This document shows, one piece after another, positions 13,899 to 30,301 of a DNA stretch of 64,000 nucleotides; position 1 is the first letter of the stretch, and each line of letters begins with the position of its first letter. A model generated the notes under the pieces. The model had not been told where the DNA came from, ran no database searches, and worked only from the letters and a program-made list of their open reading frames with translations. The DNA lies in NCBI GenBank assembly GCA_944323745.1, contig CALUTQ010000002.1, positions 372,001-436,000 on the forward strand, given 5' to 3'. The stretch comes from Candidatus Avelusimicrobium pullarium. GTDB taxonomy: Bacteria; Elusimicrobiota; Elusimicrobia; Elusimicrobiales; Elusimicrobiaceae. The position numbers and the translations under genes are program-made.

Positions 13899-14665
13899 TG
13901 TCTGGTTTCTTTTTTATTCCGGTTTTTATTATTGCTTTTGCAGCAGTTTGGTTTTTCGCTCCGCTTCTGCACCGCCCAAAGGCGCAGCTGCCTGTGTTAT
14001 TTATCAACAAGGTGGGTCTGCCGCCCGCTTGCAGCAAAGATAAAAGAAATTGGATCTCCCCCAAAAAGCTGGAAAAGCTTTTTCAGACCCTTCAAAAAAA
14101 GAATATGCTCTCGCTGTTGCCCGGTCAAGTTATAAAAGGTCATATTTCCCCAAACGGCATTATGCTGGTTTTTAACGGCGGCTATCAGAGCTTTTATCAA
14201 ATAGTTTTTCCGTTATTGCAAAAATACCGGCTGCAGGCTTCCGTCATTTTGCCGGCCGGACTGATTGGCCAATATGATGCTTGGCAAGCGCCCGAAATCG
14301 GGCCTTGGCAAAACCTCCTGACGCTGGAGCAAATTGAAGAACTTGCCAAAAGCGGTCTGACCGAAATCATATCCACCACCTTGCAGGGCACGCCCCTGTC
14401 GGCCGAGAGCGATGAAACGGCCATTTGGCAATTGCTGGAAAATAAACACCGCCTGCAAACCCTCTGCCATATAAAAACAGATACTGTTTTTTGCCCGCAA
14501 AGGCCGCGGCCCGGCGTAATACAAGCCATCAAAAAACACTTTATGCTGACGGTTGGCCCCTCTTTCGGAAACAATGCCCTGCCTTTAGATTTAAGCCGTC
14601 CTCTGAAAATATGGCCCGTTTTCAGCACCACTTTTCTTTCCCGTTTATTTTGGAAAATACGCTAG
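13898..14665 (+). CDS. Inactive deacetylase-like membrane-anchored protein
   Basis: A 255-residue protein whose start overlaps the previous stop (TAATG). It has the same plan as its neighbour: N-terminal membrane helix, then a deacetylase-like domain. The segment VFNGGYQSFYQIVFPLL aligns with TFDDGHADNYENLFPLL of the neighbour, but the catalytic DD is replaced by NG, and the SHTxxH motif is replaced by STTLQG. I infer a decayed or repurposed duplicate that may bind rather than cut glycans. It overlaps the convergent gene by 44 bp. Confidence 0.75.
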   Translation: MSGFFFIPVFIIAFAAVWFFAPLLHRPKAQLPVLFINKVGLPPACSKDKRNWISPKKLEKLFQTLQKKNMLSLLPGQVIKGHISPNGIMLVFNGGYQSFYQIVFPLLQKYRLQASVILPAGLIGQYDAWQAPEIGPWQNLLTLEQIEELAKSGLTEIISTTLQGTPLSAESDETAIWQLLENKHRLQTLCHIKTDTVFCPQRPRPGVIQAIKKHFMLTVGPSFGNNALPLDLSRPLKIWPVFSTTFLSRLFWKIR

Positions 14666-14966
14666 ACTGCTTTGTTCCGGATAAATGAAAAGCTTTTTTA
14701 ACGGGATACTTTTGGCAGTCTTTTTCTTCTAAAAGAGCCAAAGCCATATATTCGCGGCGTTGCATTTTTATTTCATCTTTCAAAAACAATCGATTCTCCG
14801 TTGCAAAAAACCGGTTATATATTCGTGCCAAATGATGCACAAGGGCAGAACTATTTTTTTGGGAAACGTGCAAACAGCCGTTACGGAAATGTAAGGGTAT
14901 ATTTTCTTTTTGGGCCCAATAAAAAAGATTATTTTCCAGTTCCAGTTTACTCCATTTTTTGTCCAT
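14622..14966 (-). CDS. Small hypothetical protein
   Basis: A 114-residue, lysine-rich soluble protein with no recognised motif. Its 3' end overlaps the convergent deacetylase-like gene by 44 bp. There is no good Shine-Dalgarno. The amino-acid pattern is protein-like but the assignment rests on the open frame only. Confidence 0.4.
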   Translation of the reverse strand: MDKKWSKLELENNLFYWAQKENIPLHFRNGCLHVSQKNSSALVHHLARIYNRFFATENRLFLKDEIKMQRREYMALALLEEKDCQKYPVKKAFHLSGTKQSSVFSKINGKEKWC

Positions 14967-15152: not shown

Positions 15153-15239
15153 TCAGTCCATATGCCGCCATTCATTTATGCAGCCACAAACCCCCACCAC
15201 CAGCAGAGCACTTAATACCAGACGCACCCAATATTCCAT
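15153..15239 (-). CDS. Possible 28-residue membrane peptide
   Basis: MEYWVRLVLSALLVVGVC followed by GCINEWRHMD: a single hydrophobic segment with a lipobox-like GVCGC. It starts directly beside a 17-bp palindrome. There is no Shine-Dalgarno; the support is the hydrophobic pattern and the adjoining palindrome. It could be chance. Confidence 0.3.
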   Translation of the reverse strand: MEYWVRLVLSALLVVGVCGCINEWRHMD

Positions 15240-15265
15240 AACTTAACCGTTAAGTTAGTAAAGTT
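15240..15265. promoter_or_regulatory. Palindrome and repressor-type half-site
   Basis: AACTTAACCGTTAAGTT (15240-15256) is a perfect palindrome with a single central C. It overlaps GTTAGTAAAGTT (15254-15265), which is present as its exact reverse complement at 15323-15334 and in variant form at 15526-15541. These may be operators of the repressor gene at 15608. The rest of the 14967-15607 gap holds a GGGAGAGGC/GCCTCTCCC hairpin near 15089-15110 and no recognised gene. Confidence 0.5.
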
Positions 15266-15322
15266 TGCAAATATATGCTTCCGGCTTGTCTATACAAATA
15301 CCACGCAAAGCAAAATATTTTT

Positions 15323-15334
15323 AACTTTACTAAC
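15323..15334. promoter_or_regulatory. Inverted copy of the GTTAGTAAAGTT site
   Basis: AACTTTACTAAC, the exact reverse complement of 15254-15265, 57 nt away. Confidence 0.45.
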
Positions 15335-15525
15335 TCAACCTTGTAATTATTTGCTAAAATAAGACCGCATAGATCTGACAGGAAATATGCGGCCGGGACA
15401 GCGGGGAACAACGTATCACAAGGCTATGATACCGAATCGGAGACCCGATTCTTCCCCAAACGGCGCTTCGCCGGCGCCTTTCCGTCCGCAGGAAGCAGAA
15501 CAAACCCGAAGGTTTCTTCTTGTTT

Positions 15526-15541
15526 GTTAGTATAGTAAGTT
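15526..15541. promoter_or_regulatory. Variant repressor-type site before the S24-like gene
   Basis: GTTAGTATAGTAAGTT shares GTTAGTAWAGT with the two upstream copies and lies about 65 nt before the gene. Confidence 0.4.
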
Positions 15542-15607
15542 TTGTAAGCGTTTGTCAAGTGTTTTCTTTTTTCCTGTGTTTTATCTCTATTTGTATAGGA
15601 GAAAAAT

Positions 15608-16285
15608 ATGAATAAATTTGAAAAACAACTTGAAAAATGGAACAACGGCGTCTTAAGAGGGGCACAAGCCAAGTTAGCAAAAATACTGGGCGTTTCTACC
15701 GCCACTACCGCTTTGTGGGCCACCGGCAAAAGACATCCTTCCAAAGGCTATATTGCCCGTATGGCGGAGCTTTTTAATATAGAGGTTTTTGACGTGTTAA
15801 AACTGTTTGATAATACCTCCACAACCTATCCGGACCCCAAACTGTCGCATTTTGCAGGGGCTTTGCGCGATAAAGAAGATGATTACGTCTATAATTTTAA
15901 TGACGAACAAACGGCCAAAGATGCCTCCCCCGTAGGCAACAGCGTTCGTTTGCCCTTTCTTAACACGATACCGGAAAACTATCCGCAATATGATGAAAGC
16001 GAAATCATTGAATGGTGGAGCATTCCCCGCCGCTATGCCCAAGGCGCTAAATATATCGTGCGCTCAAAAACGGCAGGACTGCCTGACGCCGCCGATGAGG
16101 ACGACCTCTGTTTCATCAAACCAGGGGCCGATATTGCAGCCGGCAAAACAGCCCTGCTGGCCGAAAAAAAGAAAACCTACGCCGCACGCATAGTAAAGAA
16201 CAAAGAGAAGCAAAGCATTTTGTACGGAACAAACGTCTATCCGCGCATTTTGGGCACCATTGTACGGCGAATACGCAGCGTGTGA
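15608..16285 (+). CDS. HTH regulator with LexA/S24-like C-terminal domain
   Basis: A 225-residue protein. The N-terminus is a helix-turn-helix (LAKILGVSTATTALWATGKRHPS, about residues 23-45). The C-terminal half follows the S24/LexA pattern (YIVRSK...DEDDLCFIKPGADIAAGKTALLAEKKKTYAARIV), but the usual GDSM serine segment is replaced by SKTAGLPDAA, so self-cleavage is doubtful. AGGAG precedes ATG 15608. Such proteins are typical of phage or integrated elements; no other phage gene is near. The GTTAGTAWAGT sites upstream are candidate operators. Confidence 0.75.
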   Translation: MNKFEKQLEKWNNGVLRGAQAKLAKILGVSTATTALWATGKRHPSKGYIARMAELFNIEVFDVLKLFDNTSTTYPDPKLSHFAGALRDKEDDYVYNFNDEQTAKDASPVGNSVRLPFLNTIPENYPQYDESEIIEWWSIPRRYAQGAKYIVRSKTAGLPDAADEDDLCFIKPGADIAAGKTALLAEKKKTYAARIVKNKEKQSILYGTNVYPRILGTIVRRIRSV

Positions 16286-16290
16286 AACCC

Positions 16291-16318
16291 TTGTTTTTTA
16301 TCAAAAAACACTTATACT
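16291..16318 (+). promoter_or_regulatory. Promoter of the structured RNA
   Basis: TTGTTT (16291-16296), 16-nt spacer, TATACT (16313-16318). The predicted start is at about 16325, the first base of a perfect hairpin. Confidence 0.65.
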
Positions 16319-16324
16319 ATAAAT

Positions 16325-16721
16325 AACCCCGAAGAAGGGGTTTGGGATATGCAGGGCAGAAAATGTATGTATGATGCCAGTTTTACCCGGTGATGTAAAG
16401 CGGCAGCGTATGTATAAACTGGTCGGGTCGCGCCAGCCAGATACCGTGAAGAGCGGTGAAGCATAAGTACGCGGCTTTGAAGCAGAAAATTAAATGTTCC
16501 TTGAAAATGCAGTAAAAGCCCGCAGCACCAAACGGTGCGTACGCTTCGGTTCAGACCGGAATGGAATGGAGTGCGAAGAAGCGCGCCGTGTGTTGTGGCG
16601 GTTTACAAGAAACGTTTCACTGTCTTGTGATCTTATAAGCCAACCCTTCGGGGAAGGAAACCAAATGAAAGAGTGCACCTAGAGTCCTCCGTATTTATGG
16701 AATACGGAGGGCTCTTTTTTT
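16325..16721 (+). ncRNA. Candidate structured RNA of about 400 nt
   Basis: A promoter at 16291-16318 and a 15-bp terminator hairpin at 16681-16715 with a T run bracket about 397 nt without a convincing protein. It opens with AACCCC-GAAGAA-GGGGTT, and internal complementary segments include CCAGTTT/AAACTGG, GCACC-AAAC-GGTGC, CGGT-TCAG-ACCG and CGCTTC/GAAGCG. I looked for hallmarks of RNase P RNA, tmRNA, SRP RNA and group II domain V and did not find them. A 62-codon frame at 16494-16682 and a 5-codon frame with AAGGAA before it (16664-16681) lie inside. The class is unknown. Confidence 0.6.
16681..16721 (+). terminator. Strong terminator of the structured RNA
   Basis: 15-bp stem, one U-G wobble: AGAGTCCTCCGTATT with AATACGGAGGGCTCT, then seven T. 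Confidence 0.9.
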
Positions 16722-16790
16722 ATGCAGAAATCCGCCGCGAAACTGCTTTTCCAAATTGTCTTTTTCCTTCTGAAAACGAAGAAGTAAAAT

Positions 16791-16819
16791 TTGATGATTA
16801 AAGTAAATTTTGATATAAT
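16791..16819 (+). promoter_or_regulatory. Promoter of yggS
   Basis: TTGATG (16791-16796), 17-nt spacer, TATAAT (16814-16819). The predicted start near 16826 excludes the ATG at 16820 as translation start. Confidence 0.7.
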
Positions 16820-29520: not shown

Positions 29521-29680
29521 AAAAAAACGAGTCAAGGCTATAGGCATCGTCTGCCCGTTTGCAGCTTGTCGCTACACACAAAATACCGAAAAATACCCCG
29601 TCCGAAACGGAGGGGCTATAAACATTTGGCGGGAAGCGCCGCAGCGGCCAAAACAGGCGGCCCGAAAGGGCTAAGACCCC

Positions 29681-30301
29681 TTACTTTTTTAGTGTCAGCA
29701 AAACTAAATCCGCCTGAGCAGATCCGTCTGCATAATACACATATTGCGGCACGGCACCGACCGCTTGGGCGGTATATTCGGCAAAATTCATACGGACCGT
29801 ACCGAACTTTTTGCGATACGTTACCGAACGCGGATACAGCTGCCCCGGCAAATAAAGATATTGCACCTCAAAGGCGCCGCCATAAGTTACGGTGCGGCGG
29901 CCGTCTTTTTCGCGGCAAGACTTATAGGCCGACGGCGGAAAAAGCAGCAAAGTCAAAAAACTGGCGGCCTTTTCCCGCACGAGCGCGGCATCAGCCGGCT
30001 CTGCAATATATTCAAACGTCACGTTTTGCTCCGTCACGCGGGCCTGCAGCAATTTATAACCGCCCGCCGCGGCAAACAAAACGGCCTGATAGGTGTTTTC
30101 GTCCGTCTTTTTAATCTGCAGCAGGGTTTGCAGCTCGCTGCCTTTGGCGTGCAGGGCTACCCGAAAAGCGGCCAAATACTCCCCCCGTTCAAAAAAAGAG
30201 GGGCGCTGCAAATGCTGTGCATCGCAAAAATTTTTCAGTTCCAGTCCGGCACAGCCGCCCATAAAAAACAGCCATACCAATAACAAAAATACTCTTTTCA
30301 T
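29681..30301 (-). CDS. Hypothetical lipoprotein
   Basis: A 206-residue protein with lipobox FMGGC (Cys17). The mature part alternates beta-type segments (FRVALHAKGSELQTLLQIKKTDENTYQAVLFA) in a manner like LolB/DUF3261 lipoproteins, which bind lipids or lipoproteins; this is a structural guess. AGAGG precedes the ATG. It is divergent from the GT4 gene. Confidence 0.75.
   Translation of the reverse strand: MKRVFLLLVWLFFMGGCAGLELKNFCDAQHLQRPSFFERGEYLAAFRVALHAKGSELQTLLQIKKTDENTYQAVLFAAAGGYKLLQARVTEQNVTFEYIAEPADAALVREKAASFLTLLLFPPSAYKSCREKDGRRTVTYGGAFEVQYLYLPGQLYPRSVTYRKKFGTVRMNFAEYTAQAVGAVPQYVYYADGSAQADLVLLTLKK

Follow-up and report, generated by a model that had tools for sequence, protein, structure and literature searches.

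We found that a 64,000-nt stretch of contig CALUTQ010000002.1 from Candidatus Avelusimicrobium pullarium (hereafter, the window) almost certainly harbors a self-contained gene for a structured RNA, RNA1, at positions 16325–16722. The gene signals, structure, conservation, conserved ORF frame and locus context of RNA1 are shown by the data below; no expression data are available and transcription in vivo is inferred. RNA1 is conserved in most of the examined species of a genus known here solely from metagenome assemblies. An unusual element is built into it: a mini-ORF, always five or six codons long, that is kept translatable while its peptide changes freely. If this mini-ORF gates RNA1, it would represent a novel mode of RNA control by translation. 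The locus further led us to another new structured RNA and to a T7-like virion gene cluster found across the genus. The features of the RNA1 gene are as follows, with helix numbers referring to A2, an alignment of 15 clade-A RNA1 sequences.

16291–16318, + strand: promoter, with −35 TTGTTT (16291–16296), a 16-nt spacer and −10 TATACT (16313–16318)
16325–16722, + strand: RNA1, structured RNA of ∼398 nt; transcription start inferred ∼7 nt past the −10 element
16325–16342, + strand: perfect 5′ hairpin AACCCC-gaagaa-GGGGTT, from the sequence; helix 1
16327–16653, + strand: closing helix P1, from the MFE folds of the window and relatives
16327–16334 with 16646–16653, + strand: outer part of P1, CCCCGAAG with CTTCGGGG, in single-sequence folds only
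16351–16359 with 16620–16628, + strand: inner part of P1, GCAGGGCAG with CTGTCTTGT; helix 2
16366–16416, + strand: hairpin P2; helices 3 and 4
16419–16485, + strand: arm P3, pairing 16419–16432 with 16470–16485, with near-invariant blocks; helices 5 and 6
16444–16456, + strand: inner hairpin of P3, CCGT-GAAGA-GCGG
16494–16615, + strand: P4, pairing 16494–16500 with 16609–16615; helix 7
16654–16658, + strand: ribosome-binding motif AAGGA of the mini-ORF, 6 nt before the ATG (whole element, 16654–16682)
16665–16682, + strand: mini-ORF ATG AAA GAG TGC ACC TAG (M-K-E-C-T-stop), following the folded domain and preceding the terminator
16681–16722, + strand: intrinsic terminator, the stem of which starts inside the mini-ORF stop codon

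A generic consensus scan did not pick up the RNA1 promoter because of its poor −35 element, which matches the consensus at 3 of 6 positions. We nevertheless accepted this promoter because the −35 TTG and the −10 TATACT (rarely TATAAT) are invariant or nearly so in ∼60 homologous loci. At the other end of the gene, a terminator tool identified a stem at 16681–16715 comprising 16 pairs, 7 of them G-C, with a loop of 3 nt and followed by T7. This stem corresponds to helix 12 of A2 and is preserved by compensatory changes. The region contains no conserved long ORF. We rejected its reading as a protein gene, as no ORF beyond the mini-ORF keeps its start, stop and frame. Separately, the promoter spacer (16297–16312) is an A/T-tract palindrome in several species, GTTTTTT-ATC-AAAAAAC in the window, and might conceivably serve as an operator.

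An earlier note, made from the sequence alone, had described an orphan structured RNA of ∼400 nt at 16325–16721, starting with a perfect hairpin, containing several more paired segments and lying in a gene-poor stretch behind a repressor gene, with its own promoter and a 15-bp terminator. These claims held, with the 3′ end now at 16722, one more pair in the terminator stem, 12 helices in A2 and, upstream, a helix-turn-helix (HTH) repressor gene. The gene-poor description held for long ORFs; the mini-ORF had been overlooked.

To evaluate the structure, we compared the RNA1 region with dinucleotide shuffles and analyzed compensatory change in two alignments. The + strand folded with an MFE of −149.7 kcal/mol (z = −5.9). 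An RNA from the antisense strand was rejected: its fold was weaker (z = −3.0), and the promoter, terminator and ORF are all oriented oppositely. In A2, the consensus structure comprised 81 pairs in 12 helices, with 95.9% of cells paired. Two-sided changes occurred in 35 pairs as compared to 16.0 ± 2.5 in shuffled alignments, and the covariation score was 0.350 versus 0.236 ± 0.009 for shuffled alignments and at most 0.117 with slid partners. The second alignment, of the P4 domain in 24 clade-B/C species, shares no species with the clade-A set. Its covariation score was 0.505, versus 0.288 when shuffled and at most 0.133 when slid. Thus, RNA1 passed the structured-RNA test, with compensatory changes exceeding both the shuffled and the slid controls in both alignments. 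The structures tested had been derived by consensus folding of these alignments themselves, a circumstance that biases the slid control in their favour. This bias is probably a minor concern because the gap in scores is large and the two clades agree.

The fold is a multi-branched domain of ∼325 nt, consisting of the 5′ hairpin, P1–P4 and an inner domain, followed by a tail with the mini-ORF. The 5′ hairpin, in which two pairs of A2 carry two-sided changes, is conserved among homologues in position, not in exact sequence. The inner part of P1 is paired in 99.2% of the A2 cells, with exchange of A-U and G-C pairs. Bases 16327–16330 take part in both the 5′ hairpin and outer P1, so these two helices are mutually exclusive, any switching between them being hypothetical. 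In P2, 9 of 14 pairs had two-sided changes and at least 98% of cells were paired. Directly 3′ of P3 lies the AAAA of a CAGAAAA block. P4 encloses the inner domain, which contains at least three more stacked helices. Its pairing is maintained by clade-specific sequences, of the AAATGTT/AAACGTT type in clade A and AAGAGTT/AATTCTT in clades B and C. In one genome, G030, P4 is re-paired as CAAAAATC/GGTTTTTG.

RNA1 did not correspond to any known RNA in our searches. With Rfam 15 (4227 models) at the gathering threshold, there was no match at RNA1, and the single match in the window was a tRNA. Permissive scans (E ≤ 10) of the RNA1 region and 20 homologous loci returned chance-level matches, none of them common to these loci. 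Neither RNase P RNA (RF00010) nor tmRNA (RF00023 or ARAGORN) was detected at the RNA1 locus, and ARAGORN found no tmRNA within the window. Both genes occur elsewhere in the same genome, at C2:630996–631333 (207.7 bits) and C1:642888–643233 (131.1 bits), respectively. On these grounds, we rejected the identity of RNA1 with a known RNA. 6S RNA (RF00013) had no match genome-wide (E ≤ 0.001), although a very divergent 6S RNA would still escape a model search. As a side observation, this genome (G000) also yielded no small SRP RNA (RF00169) at the same threshold of E ≤ 0.001, in a search that left out the large SRP model.

RNA1 resembles RNase P RNA and tmRNA in length, and tmRNA also in combining structure with a short ORF. 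GOLLD, ROOL and OLE are large ornate bacterial RNAs (Rfam; PMC12286853). Like them, RNA1 is hundreds of nucleotides long, has many helices and its own gene, and is of unknown or unclear function. GOLLD and ROOL are often linked to phages. By contrast to these three, RNA1 matched no covariance model, is restricted to one genus and ends with a conserved ORF of 5–6 codons. RNA1 is thus likely an undescribed class, akin in kind to the large ornate RNAs while matching no model of them. In our literature search, we found no report of a structured RNA or a gene transfer agent from Elusimicrobia. The earlier note had found the length similar to RNase P RNA or tmRNA without identity to either, which held. 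Of the checks it suggested, the covariance-model search matched no Rfam family and the covariation analysis revealed strong compensatory changes in two independent alignments. It was incomplete in missing the mini-ORF, the second structured RNA across the repressor gene and the link to a phage-derived cluster.

The mini-ORF, consisting of AUG, four or five further sense codons and a stop, was present in 46 of 47 loci in the repressor tree, the exception being G030 (L095), and genomes beyond these loci followed the same pattern. Only two lengths occurred among the 46 loci: 5 codons (18 loci) and 6 codons (28 loci). The stop was TAG in 21 loci, TGA in 22 and TAA in 3. On the repressor tree, its identity changed at least six times with a stop preserved each time; outside G030, none was lost. 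Examples include MEESTR followed by TGA, TAA or TAG with the neighbouring bases unchanged (L071/L072/L086) and MKEST followed by TAA or TAG (L062/L063). Of the nine possible single changes to a stop codon, only one or two give another stop. In some clades, small indels beside the terminator shift the frame and the stop is retained. Translation of the mini-ORF in vivo is inferred from this sequence conservation. We consider it likely because six or more stop-preserving changes are hard to explain otherwise. The peptide is unconserved (MEESTR, MNMSAN, MNKPVK, MKECT, MEKAIS and MKASV, among others), so selection probably acts on the act of translation rather than on the peptide.

The mini-ORF is about one ribosome footprint long. 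Its upstream motif touches the P1 base, and its stop the terminator stem. A good ribosome-binding site, AAGGA, precedes the mini-ORF in clade A only; the other clades mostly have AAGAGAG or AAGUGAG. Over all loci, a median of 24% of the other positions in these G-rich RNAs pair equally well with the anti-SD sequence, for which the standard sequence was assumed.

Approximately 60 related loci have RNA1 directly behind the same repressor gene. A DNA-level search with the RNA1 region matched 14 of 37 genomes of the genus, and most remaining homologues were recovered by anchoring on the upstream repressor gene. All were in gut assemblies of Elusimicrobiaceae, including Ca. Avelusimicrobium excrementipullorum. 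From clades B and C, we also built R1, a covariance model for the P4 domain. Of 295 genomes in the phylum, R1 matched 41, all within this genus, and at least 41 genomes therefore carry RNA1, as the model misses most of clade A. A weak R1 match at 29529–29690 of the window (E 0.1) was dismissed as noise. R1 found no RNA1 in the sister genus, for which three genomes were listed; the repressor relatives there are of the prophage type and lack RNA1. Viral contigs contained no match to the RNA1 and RNA2-promoter motifs and no repressor. Similarly, R1 matched neither the related rumen phages nor the 42 loci searched of 80 with TerL relatives (TerL identity ≤60%). With the motif and repressor searches of viral material empty, as well as the R1 search on 42 of those 80 loci, we rejected the presence of RNA1 in phages.

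The features surrounding RNA1 are the following.

14622–14966, − strand: small protein of ∼114 aa and unknown function, on the RNA2 side
15363–15558, − strand: RNA2, a second structured RNA with a multi-hairpin body, divergent from the repressor gene
15558→15529, − strand: RNA2 promoter TTGACA...TATACT, near-invariant across the genus
15394→15363, − strand: RNA2 3′ hairpin, followed by a conserved AGCAAATAA without a clean T-run
15608–16285, + strand: HTH repressor gene, 225 aa, with an XRE-type N-terminus and a CI/LexA-like C-terminal fold

The N-terminal 60 residues of the repressor are nearly invariant (alignment A1). Its Pfam HTH_3 match was below the cut-off, and its PHROG match was to transcriptional repressors. 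AlphaFold and Foldseek placed the C-terminal domain with lambda CI and LexA at weak TM, and the S24 catalytic (Ser/Lys) signature was unrecognisable in the alignment. The protein is thus likely phage-CI-like, on the basis of a model-predicted fold and weak similarity. Related proteins, both in this genus and in its sister genus, are repressors of the prophage type. The small protein, which had no Pfam match, was kept in 46 of 50 loci according to ORF clustering. Downstream of RNA1, the gene depends on the clade: yggS in 15 loci, an ABC transporter gene on the opposite strand in ∼18 and a DksA-like gene in 5. In the window, yggS has its own promoter-like site at 16791–16819.

In 24 genomes, TerL was located 1–5 kb from RNA1, always divergent; in a few of these, the position of the repressor was used in place of that of RNA1. 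In one genome, G015 (L136/L137), this TerL stands at the head of a compact run encoding TerS, TerL, portal, protease, major head protein, tail tubular proteins A and B, internal virion protein, fibre and endolysin, in which no integrase or replication gene was seen. The genome of the window has the same run at C2:300675–317414 (L153), ∼73 kb away. In this genome, the cluster adjoins type IV pilus-type genes. TerL was present in 59 of 66 genomes of the genus and was not found in three genomes of the sister genus. Possibly, the virion cluster is domesticated; it is gene-transfer-agent-like in appearance.

The association of RNA1 with this cluster is itself inferred, and any functional tie is probably loose because G107 (L122) has TerL, as well as the repressor and RNA2, without RNA1, and G147 (L155) has an intact RNA1 with its ORF where the repressor, RNA2 and TerL were not found. 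These two genomes led us to reject strict co-occurrence of RNA1 and TerL. G030 has RNA1 without the mini-ORF, the folded domain being kept, and lacks TerL (L156). The absences in G107 and G147 rest on draft assemblies and each is somewhat doubtful.

We propose that RNA1 is a phage-derived, translation-coupled regulatory RNA that is gated by a ribosome. In this model, a single ribosome on the mini-ORF would fill the whole RNA1 tail. Because the motif and stop of the mini-ORF touch the P1 base and the terminator stem, respectively, ribosome loading and release would compete with the former on one side and the latter on the other. This competition would control the folding, 3′-end formation or stability of RNA1, which would act in trans or on itself without a downstream-gene target. 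RNA1 would have arisen in the regulatory region of a T7-like phage that became domesticated. The gating, the trans action and the phage link are all inferred, and we regard the full explanation as no better supported than its negation. Gating in particular rests on geometry and conservation, with no data that ribosome binding alters RNA1. Against it, the canonical ribosome-binding motif is found in clade A only, and G030 retains the structure without the mini-ORF. The inferred phage origin of the locus is backed by the prophage-type paralogues of the repressor, its LexA/CI fold and the nearby TerL in 24 genomes; it hints at an ancestral regulatory role for RNA1 there. A bolder and unlikely reading is that RNA1 represents a new class of ribosome-gated RNA, its activity set by one ribosome cycling on the built-in ORF. 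In this reading, RNA1, RNA2 and the repressor would all be domesticated parts of a phage immunity region, and RNA1 would help control a genus-wide, gene-transfer-agent-like T7-type particle.

The alternative that survives best, and remains possible, is a trans-acting structured RNA that binds protein or base-pairs through its folded domain, the mini-ORF being minor or recruiting a ribosome that stabilizes the 3′ end. Consistent with this alternative, the folded domain has the strongest conservation and covariation, G030 kept the domain, including the re-paired P4, after losing the mini-ORF, and the genes downstream of RNA1 vary. However, the mini-ORF is itself under selection, as shown by its stop switching and constant length across 46 of 47 loci.

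The remaining alternatives are very unlikely. In an arbitrium-like system, RNA1 would be a regulated mRNA whose 5–6-residue peptide is sensed by a receptor, either the adjacent repressor or a different protein, on the pattern of AimP/AimR/AimX of Bacillus phages. The order of regulator gene and RNA gene, the similar length of the mature peptide, the species-specific peptides and the adjacent phage-type repressor fit this alternative. However, the mini-ORF encodes no secreted precursor, signal sequence or processing site, and its unprocessed peptide begins with the initiator Met. Moreover, no receptor of the AimR or another type was seen, the 325-nt folded leader is left unexplained and G147 keeps the ORF where no repressor was found.

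As a 5′ leader or attenuator, RNA1 would be subject to ribosome stalling on the mini-ORF, blocking the terminator and allowing read-through into the downstream gene. A short ORF just before an intrinsic terminator, with its stop overlapping the stem, is the classical geometry of amino-acid operon leaders. By contrast to these leaders, the ORF in RNA1 lies 3′ of a 325-nt folded domain and has no regulatory codon run, its codons being unconserved. The downstream gene is also unconserved and often convergent, and in the window yggS has its own promoter-like site. We rejected a cis-attenuator as there is no conserved downstream gene behind the RNA1 terminator.

A minigene toxin would be a strongly expressed 5–6-codon ORF that causes peptidyl-tRNA drop-off, as with the bar minigenes of phage lambda, and is switched by the repressor. 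The very short ORF does adjoin a phage-type repressor. However, bar minigenes have two codons and need no 325-nt folded RNA, and the codons of the mini-ORF are not limited to drop-off-prone ones. Finally, RNA1 could serve the domesticated phage cluster as a virion or packaging RNA, with a function like that of phi29 pRNA. This alternative is suggested by the proximity of TerL and TerS (1–5 kb in 24 genomes) and opposed by G107, by G147 and by the lack of an R1 match in related rumen phages.

RNA2 is supported by two-sided changes at its consensus pairs in two clades (26 of 42 pairs in one, 25 of 49 in the other). Base pairing between RNA1 and RNA2 was rejected, as cognate duplex energies were no better than non-cognate ones (mean rank 0.45). 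The 6S RNA of phage lambda is transcribed from the late promoter (pR′–tR′). RNA2, and not RNA1, resembles this RNA in being a leader of ∼190 nt from a strong promoter that, in clade C, faces virion genes. It differs in that no Q-type antiterminator was seen and in having its own conserved multi-hairpin fold. At four prophage-type CI repressor loci (L130, L131, L132 and L134), the divergent upstream stretch recalls RNA2 in its terminator-like hairpins and long inverted repeats. To the left of RNA2, at ∼15205–15345 of the window, most clades have a conserved inverted repeat, GTTAGTAAAGTTA ... TAACTTTACTAAC, with arms ∼75 nt apart, which could be an operator pair or an extra leader structure.
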